The notes beneath the pieces are model-generated. The model ran no database searches. It saw only the letters and a program-made list of their open reading frames with translations, and was not told where the DNA came from. This document shows, piece by piece, positions 5,392-38,002 of a stretch of 64,000 bases of DNA (position 1 is the stretch's first letter; each line of letters starts with the position of its first letter). The DNA is taken from contig NZ_JAFN01000001.1 in assembly GCF_000526155.1 (NCBI RefSeq), forward strand, positions 1,058,501-1,122,500, in the 5' to 3' direction. The translations under genes were made by a program, and so were the position numbers. This DNA is from Deferrisoma camini S3R1. GTDB taxonomy: Bacteria > Desulfobacterota > Deferrisomatia > Deferrisomatales > Deferrisomataceae.

Positions 5392-5821
5392 GGAGGGCTG
5401 GGAAGCCCCTTTCGGCCGCTGCGCGACCCTACAGACGGAGAAGGGTAACTTGCGCTGGCCCGGGGCCATTGCCGGAGGCGGGCATGGGGTCTGCTTCCGG
5501 CCGCGCGCGGCTCTCCAGCAGACCCCATGCCCCCCGGACCATCCAACGTCCTAACGTCCCAACGTCCTAGCGTCCAATCAACTTCGGTCGTCGGTCGGGA
5601 CGGCTCCCGTGCCGCCCCAAGGCTTCGGGGACATGGGTGCGACAGGGAGGCCCTTATAGGGGCGGAGCGCTCCGGGTGTCAAACGCTCCTCGGGTTTTCC
5701 GCCCGCCGCGGCTTGTGGTACTAATCGCAGCGAGCGCCGGGCCGGGCTCGGCGACGCAAACGGTTCCAGCTTTCCAGCCTTCTAGCCTTTTGGCCTTCCA
5801 GCCCAGCGGGCCGAAGGCCCG
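5392..5821. repeat. Repeat-filled gap: composite element, 16-base-arm hairpin and short-word arrays
   Basis: No gene lies between hypA and the AICAR transformylase gene; the gap is made of repeat modules. Positions 5413-5465 match 44688-44739 in the same orientation (about 85 percent identical by eye). The arms at 5480-5495 (GGGCATGGGGTCTGCT) and 5517-5532 are perfect inverted repeats around a 21-base loop. From 5540 to 5575 the words ACGTCC-(C/T)A repeat. At 5578-5602 are CGGTCGT words. At 5761-5805 are TTCCAGCC/TTCTAGCC words. The stretch ends in a TTCG-type hairpin, GGGCCGAAGGCCC. Confidence 0.8.
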
Positions 5822-5838
5822 TCCTTCGGAGGAATCCC

Positions 5839-7122
5839 ATGGCCGACATCAAGAAGATCTACCGCACCGTGATGGACGACCACTTCCCGGACCGGTTGAC
5901 CATCACCTTCGGCGACCAGACCCTGGTGTACCGGAAGCGCTCCTGGAAGCTCCCCGACGCCTCCGGCCAGGTGGTGGAGAAGGGCCTCCGGTACGGCGAG
6001 AACCCCGGGCAAGAAGCGGCGCTGTACGAGCTGGTGGGGGGGAACCTCGCCCTCGGGGAGTGCCGGCTCATCGAGCCGGGGTGGGGGCTGGTGTCGGCCC
6101 TGGCCGAGGAGCACATGATCCAGGCCGGCAAGCACCCCGGGAAGATCAACCTCACCGACGTGGACAACGGCCTGAACATCCTGCGCTACCTGATGGGCCG
6201 GCCCACCGCGGTGATCCTCAAGCACAACAACCCCTGCGGGGCGGCCGAGGCCGACGACCTGGAGACCGCCTTCCGCCGGGCGTTCCGGGCCGACCGGATC
6301 GCCGCCTTCGGCGGCGCGGTGGTGCTGAACCGCCCGTTGGACCGGGCCACGGCCGAGGCCGTGGTGGAGCAGTACCTGGAGGTGGTGGCCGCGCCCGACT
6401 ATGAAGAGGGGGCGGTCGAGGTGCTGCGGCGCCGCAAGGATCTGCGGATCCTCGCGGTGCCCCGCATGGACCGCCTGGCCGAGTACCGGGACCGCCGGTT
6501 CGTGGACTTCAAGAGCCTGATCGACGGCGGCCTGATCGTGCAGCAGTCCCCCTTGAACGCGGTGCAGAGCCCCTCGGACTTCCAGCCCGCCGTGGCCCAA
6601 CGGGACGGCCGCGAGGTTCGGGTCGTCCGGGTCCCCACGGCCGAGGAGCTCGATGACCTGTTCTTCGGGTGGTGCGTGGAGCAGGGGGTCACCTCCAACT
6701 CGGTGCTGTACGTGAAGGACCGGTGCACGGTGGGCATCGGCACGGGCGAGCAGGACCGGGTCGGGGTGGCCGAGATCGCCGTGTTCAAGGCCTACACCAA
6801 GTATGCGGACGCCCTGTGCTACGACCGCCACGGTCTGCCCCTGAAGGAGCTGGAGCTCCGGGTGGAGCGGGGGCAGGCCGACCCCGCGGCCCTGGAGGAG
6901 ATCCGGGCAGAGACCCGGAAGGCCAAGGGAGGGCTCATCGGGTCCGCCATGATCAGCGACGCGTTCTTCCCGTTTCGCGACGGGGTGGACGTGGGGCTCC
7001 GGGAGGGGGTCACCGCCGTGTGTCAGCCGGGCGGGGCCAACCGGGACTGGGAGGTGATCGAGGCGGTGAACGAGGCCGGCGCCACGATGGTGTTCACCGG
7101 CCAGAGGTGCTTCAAACACTGA
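5839..7122 (+). CDS. purH: Stand-alone AICAR transformylase (PurH C-terminal-type domain)
   Basis: Transfers a formyl group from 10-formyl-THF to AICAR in the penultimate step of IMP synthesis. The 427 residues cover the formyltransferase part only: GLRYGENPGQEAALYE near residue 50, the catalytic KHNNPCGAAEADDLETAF region near residues 132-149 (Lys-His conserved), AFGGAVVLNRP near 158, and the C-terminal SDAFFPFRDGVD and QPGG motifs. The IMP cyclohydrolase domain of the usual bifunctional PurH is absent and is not found elsewhere in the window, so it should be encoded elsewhere. Ribosome-binding site CGGAGGAA lies 7 bases upstream. Not obviously in an operon. Confidence 0.9.
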   Translation: MADIKKIYRTVMDDHFPDRLTITFGDQTLVYRKRSWKLPDASGQVVEKGLRYGENPGQEAALYELVGGNLALGECRLIEPGWGLVSALAEEHMIQAGKHPGKINLTDVDNGLNILRYLMGRPTAVILKHNNPCGAAEADDLETAFRRAFRADRIAAFGGAVVLNRPLDRATAEAVVEQYLEVVAAPDYEEGAVEVLRRRKDLRILAVPRMDRLAEYRDRRFVDFKSLIDGGLIVQQSPLNAVQSPSDFQPAVAQRDGREVRVVRVPTAEELDDLFFGWCVEQGVTSNSVLYVKDRCTVGIGTGEQDRVGVAEIAVFKAYTKYADALCYDRHGLPLKELELRVERGQADPAALEEIRAETRKAKGGLIGSAMISDAFFPFRDGVDVGLREGVTAVCQPGGANRDWEVIEAVNEAGATMVFTGQRCFKH

Positions 7123-7148
7123 GATGCGCAGATGCGGACGCCAGGACG

Positions 7149-7332
7149 CTAGCCCGCATTATTCATGAGCGTTCGTCGCGAAACCGTCGAGTGTGCGTCA
7201 GATCGGGGCAAGCGCAGCGCCGAGGGGCGCAGGCGTACTGGACGGTACGTCGAGCCCCGAGGCGCGAGCACGCCCCGAGATGGCGTGCAATCGGCGGTTG
7301 CAGCAGAAGGCTTCATGAATAATGCGGGCTAG
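7149..7332. mobile_element. 184-base foldback (MITE-like) element with perfect 20-base inverted ends
   Basis: The left end CTAGCCCGCATTATTCATGA (7149-7168) is the exact reverse complement of the right end at 7313-7332. The inner sequence is also self-complementary, imperfectly, with the symmetry centre near GTACTGGACGGTAC at about 7241. The RNA or single strand could therefore form one long hairpin. No open frame of a transposase is present. CTAG at both outer ends could be a 4-base target duplication or part of the ends. I read it as a non-autonomous palindromic element; the mobilising enzyme is unknown. Confidence 0.75.
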
Positions 7333-7412
7333 AACCCGCAGACGTTGGGATGTTTCGCTCTTCCCGTCCGAACGTCCCAGCGTCCCAACGTCCGCACGGC
7401 CTAACGTTCCCA
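7333..7412. repeat. Array of ACGTCCCA-type words upstream of the aminotransferase gene
   Basis: Between the foldback element and the aminotransferase gene, the words CGTCCGAACGTCCC, AGCGTCCCAACGTCC and CTAACGTTCC follow one another with a period of about 8. The same word family occurs at 5540-5572, 36547-36572, 39378-39403 and 62402-62415. Confidence 0.7.
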
Positions 7413-7423
7413 CGGAGACAGGG

Positions 7424-8626
7424 ATGCCTCTTTCCGAAAAGGCCCGGTCGTTCACCGAGTCGGTGATCCGGGAGATGACGCGCCACGCCATGGCCCACGG
7501 GGCCGTAAACCTGGCCCAGGGGTTCCCCGACTTCCCCTGCCCCCAAGAGCTCAAAGACGCGGCCTGCCGGGCCCTGCAGGCCGACGTGAACCAGTACGCG
7601 ATCACGTGGGGGGCCAAGGGGTTCCGGGACGCCCTGGCCGAGAAGACCCGTCGGTTCCTGGGGATCGAGGTGGATCCCGAGACCGAGATCACGGTGACCT
7701 GCGGATCCACCGAGGCCATGATCGCGAGCCTGCTTGCGGTGGTGGATCCGGGGGACGAGGTGATCGTGTTCGAGCCGTTCTACGAGAACTACGGCCCGGA
7801 TGCGGTGCTGTGCGGGGCGGTTCCGCGGTACGTGCCGCTGCGGCCCCTCGAGGAGGGCAGGCAGAGGCGGTGGGGGTTTGACCCGGACGAGCTGGCCCGG
7901 GCGTTCACCCCCAGGACCCGCGCCCTGGTGCTCAACACCCCCCAGAACCCCACGGGCAAGGTGTTCACCCGGGAGGAGCTCGAGGCGATCGCCGAGCTGT
8001 GCGTCCGCCACGACGTGGTGGCCGTGACCGACGAGATCTACGAGCACATCGTGTTCGACGGCCGCACTCACACGGCCATGGCCACCCTTCCCGGCATGCG
8101 GCAGCGCACGATCACGATCAGCGGGCTGAGCAAGACCTACTCCGTGACCGGATGGCGGGTCGGGTACGCCATCGCTCCGGCCCACCTCACGGCCGGCATC
8201 CGCAAGGTCCACGACTTCCTCACGGTGGGTGCGGCCGCTCCCCTCCAAGAGGCCGGGGCGGTGGCCCTGGCTCTTCCCCCCTCGTACTACGAGCGCCTCA
8301 GCGCGTCGTACCAGGCCAAGAGGGACCGGTTCGTCCCCCGGCTCGAGGCGCTGGGGTTCCGGTGCTACCCGCCCGAGGGAGCCTACTACGTCATGGCCGA
8401 CATTCGGGGGTTCGGCGCCGGGGACGACACGGCGTTCGCCCTGGAGCTGGTGAGGGAGGCCGGGGTGGCGGTGGTGCCGGGGTCGAGCTTCTTCTCCGAC
8501 CCCGCCCTCGGCCGCCATCTCGTCCGTTTCTGTTTTTGCAAGCGCGACGACACGCTGGACGAGGCCCTGGACCGGTTGGAGGCGTGGGCCGGGCGGAAAG
8601 GAGGGTCGATCCGGGGCGCCGGGTGA
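7424..8626 (+). CDS. PLP-dependent class I/II aminotransferase
   Basis: A 400-residue fold-type I aminotransferase. The N-terminus has LAQGFPDFPCP. VTCGSTEAM starts the cofactor-binding domain. NTPQNPTGKVF holds the conserved Asn, and VTDEIYEH the Asp and Tyr contacting PLP. SGLSKTYSVTGWRVGY carries the Schiff-base Lys, and VRFCFCK near the C-terminus the carboxylate-binding Arg. This pattern fits the aspartate / kynurenine / methionine aminotransferase (YbdL-KAT) group. The substrate cannot be fixed from sequence. The ATG at 7424 follows GGAGACAGGG. The acyl-CoA dehydrogenase gene starts 23 bases downstream, so the two may be co-transcribed. Confidence 0.88.
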   Translation: MPLSEKARSFTESVIREMTRHAMAHGAVNLAQGFPDFPCPQELKDAACRALQADVNQYAITWGAKGFRDALAEKTRRFLGIEVDPETEITVTCGSTEAMIASLLAVVDPGDEVIVFEPFYENYGPDAVLCGAVPRYVPLRPLEEGRQRRWGFDPDELARAFTPRTRALVLNTPQNPTGKVFTREELEAIAELCVRHDVVAVTDEIYEHIVFDGRTHTAMATLPGMRQRTITISGLSKTYSVTGWRVGYAIAPAHLTAGIRKVHDFLTVGAAAPLQEAGAVALALPPSYYERLSASYQAKRDRFVPRLEALGFRCYPPEGAYYVMADIRGFGAGDDTAFALELVREAGVAVVPGSSFFSDPALGRHLVRFCFCKRDDTLDEALDRLEAWAGRKGGSIRGAG

Positions 8627-8649
8627 ACGCATTACGAGGAGGTGCGGCA

Positions 8650-9825
8650 ATGGACGGAACTCGCGCGTGGGTTCGGGACCGGTTCGGGGAGGTTCTGGAG
8701 CTGGTGGCCCGCCGGGCACCGGAGGTGGACCGGACGGCCGAGTTCCCCGAGGACGTGCTCAGGGCCTATCAGGAGGCGGGCCTCATGGCGGCCCAGGTGC
8801 CCCCCGATCTGGGGGGGCTGGGCCTCACCCACCTTCAGTTCGCAGCGGTCGTGGAGGAGGTGGCCCGCCACTCGGGGGCGCTGTCGTTGCTCCTCATCGT
8901 GCAGGCGGTGGGCCTCCTTCCCATCCTGCTGCGGCCCGAGTTCCCGCGGCGCGACGAGGTGCTCACCCGGGTCACCCGGTCGGGCGCCCTGGTGGGGTTC
9001 GCGCTCACCGAGCCGCCGTCCGGCTCCGACGCCTACAACATGCGCACCGAGGTGGTCCAGCGGGACGGCGCCCACCGGCTCACCGGCGTCAAGTACCTGA
9101 TCACCAACGCCGGAAGGGCCCACGCCTACGTCGTGTTCACCAACTTCCGGGAGCCTGGGCTCAAGCACGTGGCCGCCTACCTGGTCGACGCCGACCGGGA
9201 AGGGGTGCGGGTGGGCCCCGCAAACCGCCTGCTGGGGATGCGGGGGATCCCCACGGCCTCGATCCACTTCGACGACGTGGCCGTGGACGAGGCCGACCGG
9301 ATCGGCGGTAAGAACGAGGGTTACGTGCTGGCCATGGACACCCTGAACATCTCCCGGCCCTGGATCGGGGCCCAGGCCGTGGGGCTGGCCAGGGGGGCCC
9401 TGGACACCGCCATGCAGTTCGCCTGCCAGCGCAAGGTCATGGGCGAGCCCCTGATCGACAAGCAGGCGTTCCGGTTCACCCTGGCGGAGGTGGCGGCGCG
9501 GATCGAGGCGGCCAGCGCCCTGGTGGAGCGGACCTCCCGCATGATCGACGCCGGCCGCGAGGACTACACGGCCCAGTCGGCCATGTGCAAGCTGGTGGCC
9601 ACCGACACGGCCATGTGGGCGTGCGAGCGGGCCCTGCAGATGCTCGGCGGACCCGGGTGCATCGCGGGAAACCGGGCGGAACGGGCGTTCCGGGACGTAA
9701 AGATCACCCAGATCTATGAAGGCACCAACGAGGTCCAGAAGATACTGGTGGCCCGGGAGCTGGTGCAGGCCGCCCGGGCCCGCCGGCCGGCGGCGGCCGG
9801 AACCGCGCCCGAGCTGCTGACCTGA
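8650..9825 (+). CDS. Acyl-CoA dehydrogenase
   Basis: A 391-residue FAD enzyme that introduces the alpha-beta double bond in acyl-CoA. Visible features are an N-terminal helical domain (residues 1-110), the FAD-contact motif FALTEPPSGSDA, and the C-terminal helical domain with QMLGGPGCI. The signature IYEGTNEVQKI carries the Glu that acts as catalytic base in the short- and medium-chain and glutaryl-CoA branches. The chain-length or substrate class is unclear; a glutaryl-CoA or branched-chain role would be worth considering given gcdA in the window. GAGGAGG lies 7 bases upstream of the ATG. The gene converges on the alpha/beta hydrolase gene with a 20-base gap. Confidence 0.9.
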   Translation: MDGTRAWVRDRFGEVLELVARRAPEVDRTAEFPEDVLRAYQEAGLMAAQVPPDLGGLGLTHLQFAAVVEEVARHSGALSLLLIVQAVGLLPILLRPEFPRRDEVLTRVTRSGALVGFALTEPPSGSDAYNMRTEVVQRDGAHRLTGVKYLITNAGRAHAYVVFTNFREPGLKHVAAYLVDADREGVRVGPANRLLGMRGIPTASIHFDDVAVDEADRIGGKNEGYVLAMDTLNISRPWIGAQAVGLARGALDTAMQFACQRKVMGEPLIDKQAFRFTLAEVAARIEAASALVERTSRMIDAGREDYTAQSAMCKLVATDTAMWACERALQMLGGPGCIAGNRAERAFRDVKITQIYEGTNEVQKILVARELVQAARARRPAAAGTAPELLT

Positions 9826-25799: not shown

Positions 25800-26545
25800 C
25801 GCTCCTCCCCCTGGGGGTAGATCACCGCCCGGGCCCCCTCCACCACGGACCGGTCCTCGGCGAGGAACAGGGTGATCCGGTCGCCCGCCACCAGGTTCTT
25901 GCCCCGCCACACCTTGGGGTCGCCCTCCAGCACCACCACGCCCCGGGCGGCGTCGTACCGGGCCGTGCGGCCCGTGGCCAGCACGTCCCCCCGCCGGATC
26001 CGGACGTTGCCCTCGGCGTAGGCGCTTCGGAGCTCCCGGGTCTCCGGGTCCAGGGTCACCTCCAGGCGATCCGCCTCCAGGGTCAGGTCGCCCTGCCGGG
26101 CCCGAACCTGGCCCGAGAACACCACCCGGGCCTCCTCGCCGCGCACCTCCAGGGACTGGGCGTCCACCTGGAGGGGCTCCTTGCCCTGGGCCCAGGTTCC
26201 CAGCGGCGCCTGGGCCGCTCCGGCGGCCGCGGCCAGCACCGTCATGAACCCGGCGACAAGATGGGCGCGCCACCTCAAGGGGCGGGGCAAGGGACTTGCC
26301 TCCGGCCGGGCGCGAAGCCGGGCATTGGGATTCGCCGCGCAGGCACGAAGCCGAAGAGCTGGTTTCCTGACAACCCCGTGGAGTCCGAACCATTTCGCGG
26401 TCCGAGCGTCAGAGGCGCTGCGCGGCGAGCTAAGGGGCCGCGCCCGGCTCTCCGGCAGGTCCCTTGCCCTCCCGGGCAGGGGGCGACAGTGCCCGTCCAT
26501 CCGCCGGGTCAATGGGATGAGCGCCGTTGCGACACGAAGGATCAC
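25796..26545 (-). CDS. lptA: LPS transport periplasmic protein LptA, carrying an in-frame palindromic insertion near its N-terminus
   Basis: LptA forms the periplasmic bridge for LPS. The OstA-like core is clear: PLQVDAQSLEVRGEEARVVF, LEADRLEVTLDPE, YAEGNVRIRRGD and ARYDAARGVVVLEGDPKV. The GTG at 26545 overlaps the lptC stop (GTGA), like the neighbouring junctions, and opens ILRVATALIPL. About 20 codons later the frame crosses a palindromic repeat (26285-26469) for about 62 codons without a stop. Only then does it reach RWRAHLVAGFMTVLAAAAGAAQA, which looks like the real signal peptide with an AQA cleavage site. Either translation restarts at the TTG at 26278 or ATG at 26245, or a long pre-sequence is made. 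No good ribosome-binding site is seen before the inner starts. Confidence 0.82.
   Translation of the reverse strand: MILRVATALIPLTRRMDGHCRPLPGRARDLPESRARPLSSPRSASDARTAKWFGLHGVVRKPALRLRACAANPNARLRARPEASPLPRPLRWRAHLVAGFMTVLAAAAGAAQAPLGTWAQGKEPLQVDAQSLEVRGEEARVVFSGQVRARQGDLTLEADRLEVTLDPETRELRSAYAEGNVRIRRGDVLATGRTARYDAARGVVVLEGDPKVWRGKNLVAGDRITLFLAEDRSVVEGARAVIYPQGEER
26285..26469. repeat. 185-base palindromic element inside the lptA reading frame
   Basis: The outer arms GGGCAAGGGACTTGCC (26285-26300) and 26454-26469 are inverted with one mismatch. Inner arms CCGGGCGCG (26306-26314) and CGCGCCCGG (26439-26447) extend the stem. The joint sequences TCCGGCCG and CGGCTCTCC also occur in the loop of the 5480-5532 hairpin, so the two elements look related. 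The central 120 bases are unrelated to lptA or lptC. Confidence 0.7.
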
Positions 26546-36604: not shown

Positions 36605-38002
36605 GGCCACGTCGTCCTCGTGGCCCCAATCGCCGCCCAGGGCCAGGTACAGGGACACCCTCGCGGTGAGCAGGGCGTGCCGGGCCTCCACCACCCCCAG
36701 CTCGGCCGCCAGCAGGGTGTCCCGGGCCACCAGGGTGCGGGTGATCTCCTCCAGCCCCCGGCGGTACCGGATCTCGGCCGTGCCCACGGCCTGTCGGGCG
36801 TGGGTCAGGCTCTCCTCCAGGGCCGCGAGGCGGCGGCGCTGGGCCTGCTCCACGGTCAGCGCGTCCTCCACCTCCCGCAGGGCCGTGAGCACGGCCTGGC
36901 CCCAGGCCAGCCGGGCCTGCTCGGCCCGGGCCTCGGCCTCGGCCAGGTTCGCCTCGCGCAGCCCGGCGTCGAAGAGCGGCTGGGTCAGGTTGCCGATCAG
37001 GTTCCAGAACGTGTTCGTGCCTAGCGTCAGGTCCCGCAGCACGGCGCTGGTGCGGCCCCCGGAGGCGGTCAGGGCAAGCCGGGGGAACCGGTCCGCGTCG
37101 GCCGCGGCCGCCCGCAGCCGGGCGCCCAGGTATCGGCGCTCCGCCGCTCGCAGGTCGGGCCGGCGCCACAGCAGGTCCGAGGGCAGCCCCGCCGGAACCG
37201 GGTCGGGAACCCCCGGCAGCCTGGGCTCGAGGTCGTCCCCCCCCCCGGGGTACTCGCCCAGCAGCACCCGGAGCCGGTGCCGGGCGAGCTCGGCCTGCTG
37301 CTCCAGGGCGGCCACCCGGGCCCGGGCCTGGGCCACCCGCTGCTGGGCCTGGTGCACGTCGGGAGCCGGCGCCAGCCCCCGCCGGAACCGAATCTCTGCC
37401 ACCTTCTGCCGCTGCCGGTCGGCCTCCAGCACCCGCCGGGCCACCTCGGCCTGCTCCAGAGCCGCGCCCAGGTCCAGCCAGGCCCGCACCACCTCGGCCA
37501 CCATCAGGTGGTAGGCCCGCACCGCGTCCTCCCGGGCCGCGGCCAGGTCCTGGCGGGCCGCCTCCTGCAGGTTTGCGATCCGGCCCCAAAGGTCCACCTC
37601 GTAGCTCACGCCCAGGTCCACTCCGTAGCGGTCGTTGATCCGGTCGCCGAACCACACCTCCCCGGCCGAGCGGCTACGCTGGGCCGAGGCCGAGGCGGTC
37701 ACCGCGGGCAGCCGGGCCGCCCCGGCCCGGGCGGCCGCGGCGCGGGCCTCGGCCACCCGGGCGGCCATGCGCCGCAGGTCCAGGTTGCCGCGGACCGCCC
37801 GCTCCACGAGACGGTCCAGCTCGGGGTCGCCGAAGGCGCGCCACCACCGGGCCGCGAGCACCCGCTCTCCGGCCTGGGCCGGCAGGTCGCCGAAGCTCTG
37901 CTCGGCCAGGGCCACCGGCGGCTCGGGCGGACGGATGCGGGCCGGGCCGGCGCACCCGGCCGCCCCCAAGAGCACGACGATCGCCAGCGCCGTCGGCCTC
38001 AC
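36593..38002 (-). CDS. RND efflux outer-membrane lipoprotein (NodT/TolC family)
   Basis: Outer-membrane channel of 469 residues with a lipoprotein signal: VVLLGAAGCAGP gives a lipobox Cys near residue 17. Two OEP repeats are visible, each with a long helix-rich stretch (AARVAEARAAAARAGAARLP and AEAEARAEQARLAWGQAVL) and strands such as VDLGVSYEVDLWGRI and TQPLFDAGLREANL. It provides the exit duct of the pump. The GTG at 38002 overlaps the tetR stop, and the product ends in DDVAGGG with the TAG drawn from a repeat. Confidence 0.9.
   Translation of the reverse strand: MRPTALAIVVLLGAAGCAGPARIRPPEPPVALAEQSFGDLPAQAGERVLAARWWRAFGDPELDRLVERAVRGNLDLRRMAARVAEARAAAARAGAARLPAVTASASAQRSRSAGEVWFGDRINDRYGVDLGVSYEVDLWGRIANLQEAARQDLAAAREDAVRAYHLMVAEVVRAWLDLGAALEQAEVARRVLEADRQRQKVAEIRFRRGLAPAPDVHQAQQRVAQARARVAALEQQAELARHRLRVLLGEYPGGGDDLEPRLPGVPDPVPAGLPSDLLWRRPDLRAAERRYLGARLRAAAADADRFPRLALTASGGRTSAVLRDLTLGTNTFWNLIGNLTQPLFDAGLREANLAEAEARAEQARLAWGQAVLTALREVEDALTVEQAQRRRLAALEESLTHARQAVGTAEIRYRRGLEEITRTLVARDTLLAAELGVVEARHALLTARVSLYLALGGDWGHEDDVAGGG

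Follow-up and report, generated by a model that had tools for sequence, protein, structure and literature searches.

A foldback element of Deferrisoma camini S3R1 is very probably an IS1380-type MITE with a YTAR target duplication

The foldback element described here is, with high probability, a non-autonomous MITE of the IS1380 type, moved in trans by a transposase of the IS1380 family. It lies in the window, i.e. the whole stretch of 64,000 nucleotides that was analysed, which corresponds to positions 1058501-1122500 of the one contig (C1, 4,236,551 bases, 4.24 Mb) of its own genome, G000. The arms that the first-pass annotation had described as perfect 20-base inverted ends (7149-7168 and 7313-7332) are indeed 100% complementary over their 20 nt. 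Its 184-base foldback also stands, but not as the extent of the element: the outer CTAGs are a target duplication, and the element proper (7153-7328) measures 176 bp, with perfect 16-bp terminal inverted repeats (Table 1). The element sits between two + strand genes, one with an AICARFT/IMPCHase domain (5839-7122), whose stop lies 26 nt before the 184-nt foldback, and one coding for an aminotransferase, which starts at approximately 7424, about 91 nt past the foldback. As first annotated, it carries no gene; no ORF is confined to it, and the ORFs crossing it are overlapping alternative frames. In an Rfam search of positions 5500-9000, nothing at E ≤ 5 overlapped 7149-7332, the sub-threshold matches all lying elsewhere. 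The intergenic DNA on both sides (7123-7148 and 7333-7423), like the flanks of many other copies, contains short degenerate word repeats (e.g. cgtcccaacgt, ttccagc/ctagcctt), which provide many CTAG sites. The window copy itself is presumably an inert intergenic insertion.

Table 1. Parts of the element in the window, with the evidence by which each was delimited.
Feature	Position	Strand	Evidence
Left target duplication copy, CTAG	7149..7152	.	Outer 4-mers covary across copies; single CTAG or TTAA at empty sites
Left 16-bp terminal inverted repeat, CCCGCATTATTCATGA	7153..7168	+	Left end of the resident IS1380-family element differs at 2 positions
Non-coding interior, folding back imperfectly, with mismatch loops of purine-purine type and the apex GCGTACTGGACGGTACGT	7169..7312	+	Similarity to the resident IS confined to the ends
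Right 16-bp terminal inverted repeat	7313..7328	-	End matches across copies
Right target duplication copy, CTAG	7329..7332	.	Empty sites and comparison of 4-mers across copies

The first-pass annotation had proposed a search for second copies of the 20-base end, and these are plentiful: 31 matches were found in the genome when up to 3 mismatches were allowed, against 0 for the reversed control. Searching with the full-length element yielded 14 copies at 96-100% identity including the window copy (one of the 14 lacks the left end), as well as older copies, one at 93% and one at 85% identity, and fragments. The copy at C1:3190303 is 100% identical to that of the window, and the alignment of family copies took in 18 sequences. 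Among the 59 relatives searched, six gave matches at E ≤ 0.001, namely the genome itself, two others of the same genus (G001 and G002) and three distant ones (G029, G039 and G051), in which the matches are partial only; the only genome of the same family outside the genus, G003, gave none. A scan of named sequences with the right end returned 32 stretches, 29 of which are in two MAGs (JALUTY and JAADGT) that were taken as G001 and G002. The remainder comprises L146, a 184-bp relative in a groundwater Deltaproteobacteria MAG, and matches in Brevibacillus and Hyphomonas, with no visible element around either. A 201-bp foldback in G051 (L074:1399-1599, ends CTAGCCCGCATATTGCACGAA) is a more distant relative with the same end type.

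The outer 4-mers were examined for 44 copies in G000, G001 and G002, orthologous pairs included and two copies being cut by contig ends. Both ends are intact (≤3 mismatches) in 31 of the 44, of which 27 have the same outer 4-mer on either side (24 CTAG, 2 TTAA and 1 TTAG); YTAR fits 30 left and 30 right 4-mers of the 31 copies. CTAG and TTAA are palindromic, so equal outer 4-mers alone could mean an extended inverted repeat, and empty sites were therefore tested; only these sites and the TTAG copy settle the choice between a target duplication and a longer inverted repeat. For seven G000 copies the flanks were traced in G001 and G002, which gave nine site pairs for alignment to the joined flanks; four of these pairs are too diverged to judge, and two of the seven copies lie on contig ends in G001. 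The copies at C1:3004741 and C1:2121130 are absent from G001, where the flanks are identical at 595/604 and 600/604 positions, respectively, and enclose a single CTAG. The C1:2551254 copy is also absent from G001 (583/604), with a single TTAA and a 9-base gap just beside it, while the C1:387068 copy is absent from G002 (572/604, TCAG at the site), yet present in G001. Since only one CTAG or TTAA is present where a sister genome lacks the element, the CTAG is a YTAR-type target duplication of 4 bp, which agrees with the first reading of these bases and with its expectation of empty sites containing a single CTAG, one of those found having TTAA instead. The empty sites also mean that these copies were inserted after the sister species split; the family was thus active after that split and has been mobile in the genus's recent past. 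The window copy is an older insertion, because G001 carries a copy at the equivalent place. The foreign origin once proposed from the AT-rich ends is not shown, given this shared copy and the presence of the family in all three genomes of the genus that were searched. No empty site was found for the window copy, its place being occupied in G001 and the intergenic stretch of G002 being unalignable.

These sites also bear on the nature of the repeat. REP, ERIC and BIME palindromes are multicopy intergenic foldbacks as well, and a REP/ERIC-like structural repeat, kept by the host for RNA or chromosome structure (as a terminator or mRNA stabiliser) with no transposon involved, would suit the strong fold, the strand asymmetry and the intergenic position of the window copy just 3' of a gene. 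We regard it as highly improbable, as it is largely refuted by the empty sites together with the precise target duplications, and neither an Rfam family over the window copy nor an orientation bias speaks for it. The orientation test started from 46 loci, less 5 orthologues and 4 lacking a gene call; the remaining copies were oriented like the upstream gene in 20 cases and opposite to it in 17, based on crude gene calls. With gene orientation around the copies being unbiased, there is no support for a role in host transcripts. REPs are RAYT-linked short palindromes not known to have such ends or target duplications, so the comparison with a REP-type palindrome in the first-pass annotation was wrong: the element differs from REP, ERIC and BIME palindromes in its sharp 16-bp ends, its 4-bp duplication and its autonomous partner.

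A transposon with matching ends, which had also been suggested as a check, was found at C1:3805519-3807208. This full-size IS measures 1690 bp including both CTAGs, has the ends CTAGCCCGGATGATTCATGA and CTAGCCCGGATAATTCACGA, and contains one intact ORF of 459 aa matching Pfam DDE_Tnp_1_4 (E 1.1e-156) and, above the family cut-off, NCBIfam transpos_IS1380 (E 6.6e-123). No second transposase of this kind was found in the genome. The ends of the IS differ from those of the MITE by 2 (left) and 3 (right) mismatches of 20. Judging from the sequences, the resident IS is the likely mover of the MITE. The common ends and target could also be those of an internal-deletion derivative of the resident element, i.e. 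a strict type I MITE, but this is improbable, as only the terminal 20-23 bp align and the other matches are weak (E above 1) and no better than chance. Since the shared sequence is limited to those termini, the MITE is not a deletion product of the resident IS, which was ruled out as its parent for the lack of homology to the interior.

Given the mismatches at both ends, the actual partner may be some other IS1380 relative. The family could have been spread by a different relative, now lost here, and be no longer mobile; the same 2-3 mismatches are consistent with this, and so is G002, which contains copies of the MITE but gave no IS1380 transposase match (its assembly is only 81% complete). 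Such a scenario deserves consideration but is on balance unlikely, as the identical copies in the window and at C1:3190303 and the copies that G001 lacks at sites with 96-99% identical flanks point to fairly recent movement. G001 has a relative (47%) at a contig end, the end of which is given as CCCGGATTATTCACGA and also as CTAGCCCGGATTATTCACGA. Both the enzyme that moved the family, probably the resident transposase or one closely related to it, and the chemistry of the movement are inferred.

The ends and target were compared with those of plasmid-borne IS1380-family elements from Rhizobium, Mesorhizobium, Azospirillum and Microvirga, the transposases of which show 43-45% identity. CTAG adjoins CCCG-like ends in all four of the relatives examined, one of the eight ends having TTAA (Azospirillum); the Microvirga ends, starting with CCGC and CCCA, are the weakest match. 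Assignment to this IS1380 end and target group, which was tested by CCCG...TCAYGA ends beside CTAG or YTAR in relatives, is thereby supported, and from these sequences a 4-bp YTAR target looks typical of this branch of the family. For IS1247, which belongs to the IS1380 family, inverted repeats of 16/13 bp and a 5-bp duplication are listed (PMC3281130). The MITE shares its ends with the resident member of the family and differs in having no transposase, in its length of 176 bp and in a 4-bp YTAR duplication rather than one of 5 bp as in IS1247. PiggyBac elements are described with a TTAA target duplication (rarely TTAG and CTAA) and CCC-type end motifs, and IS1380 has served as the outgroup of their tree (PMC10813416). 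The likeness consists in a 4-bp target duplication and CCC-type ends, a relation argued from target and ends only, whereas piggyBac is eukaryotic and the main target of the MITE is CTAG. The YTAR target fits, and supports, the proposed kinship between IS1380 and piggyBac.

The first-pass annotation had also described imperfect self-complementarity over the full length, and the alignment of the element with its own reverse complement agrees, with 138 of 188 columns matching over its whole length. As DNA, the 184 nt fold at -71.1 kcal/mol compared with a mean of -37.6 for shuffled sequences (z -11.1), and 0 of 200 shuffles were as good. The two strands are not equivalent: the mismatch loops of the window + strand hold 29 purines and 6 pyrimidines, and this strand folds better than its complement both as RNA (-130.4 vs -103.0) and as DNA (-71.1 vs -57.7). 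The loops include cGAg/cGAg and aGAt/aGAt, which are of the tandem G-A type, presumably forming sheared pairs. All 11 such elements tested agree in the sign of the purine share, the distant L072 (29/2), L074 (15/3) and L084 (21/1) among them, and 10 of 11 agree in that of the energy difference, which is near zero in L146 and slightly reversed in L078; neither asymmetry was seen in two unrelated foldback families of the genome, X and Y. Of 393 palindromes whose decay was simulated, 3 attained such a purine share (in one direction or the other) and 1 such an energy difference, in a post-hoc comparison under a simple mutation model. For 30 sequences, 14 pairs were found changed on both sides, compared with 5.1 in shuffled alignments, while slid controls reach 13, and compensatory evolution is accordingly taken as unproven. 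In our reading, the strand asymmetry belongs to the element itself. A variable-gap pattern of the apex matched 4 of 395 genomes of the phylum, which are the three of the genus and G039. Cores resembling that of the MITE recur in the distant genomes G029, G039 and G051, in elements whose ends differ. In G039, hairpins of about 100 bp (14 matches; L073, L077, L081, L084, L087 and L090) have an apex nearly identical to that of the MITE, with differing arms. It is conceivable, if rather doubtful, that the interior is no mere filler but a strand-specific folding core, in which purine-purine mismatches of the tandem G-A type render the hairpin of one strand far more stable than that of the other, forming an ssDNA or RNA hairpin that aids copying or transposition and can be swapped between transposon families.

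Foldback families X and Y are much more numerous than the IS1380-type MITE, and several copies of the latter adjoin X or Y copies. Family X (265-270 bp approximately, ends TTAACCCGGCGGATA and TTTTGTCGCCGGGTTAA) has at least 40 scored copies in the genome, with 307 candidates at first look, and one copy in the window (26248-26512, minus strand, 88% identity). Family Y elements are about 240 bp long, flanked by CTAG and with TGT..ACA ends, as in L031:1686-1924 (C1:3190488-3190726); at least 40 copies were scored, with 207 first-look candidates, and a fragment lies at 37705-37748 of the window. At the place of the window MITE, G002 (L157) has a family Y element beginning 28 nt past the stop of the orthologue of the 5839-7122 gene.

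The MITE reading, already put forward in the first-pass annotation, is thus supported by the multiple copies, the IS with matching ends, the target duplication and the empty sites. With its inverted ends, its shortness and its non-coding sequence, the element has the features by which prokaryotic MITEs are recognised, including a matching autonomous element. In the proposed mechanism, the 16-bp ends CCCGCATTATTCATGA would be recognised by an IS1380-family transposase, which would insert the element at a YTAR tetranucleotide (CTAG in most cases, but also TTAA and TTAG); this tetranucleotide would be duplicated and flank the inserted element. Mobilisation in trans would depend on the resident enzyme or one closely related to it, as the sequence similarity of the ends suggests. 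No description of an IS1380-derived MITE was found among the open-access papers searched, and the element represents a new family of a well-known kind of element. Geobacter uraniireducens is another deltaproteobacterium. Its 235-bp MITE Chunjie is likewise multicopy, according to a review (PMC10969869). The present family adds an IS1380-type MITE that is well documented, has a YTAR (CTAG/TTAA) target and includes insertions dated between sister species. The strand-asymmetric core, if it is no accident of descent, would make it a testable question why some MITEs fold back over their full length.
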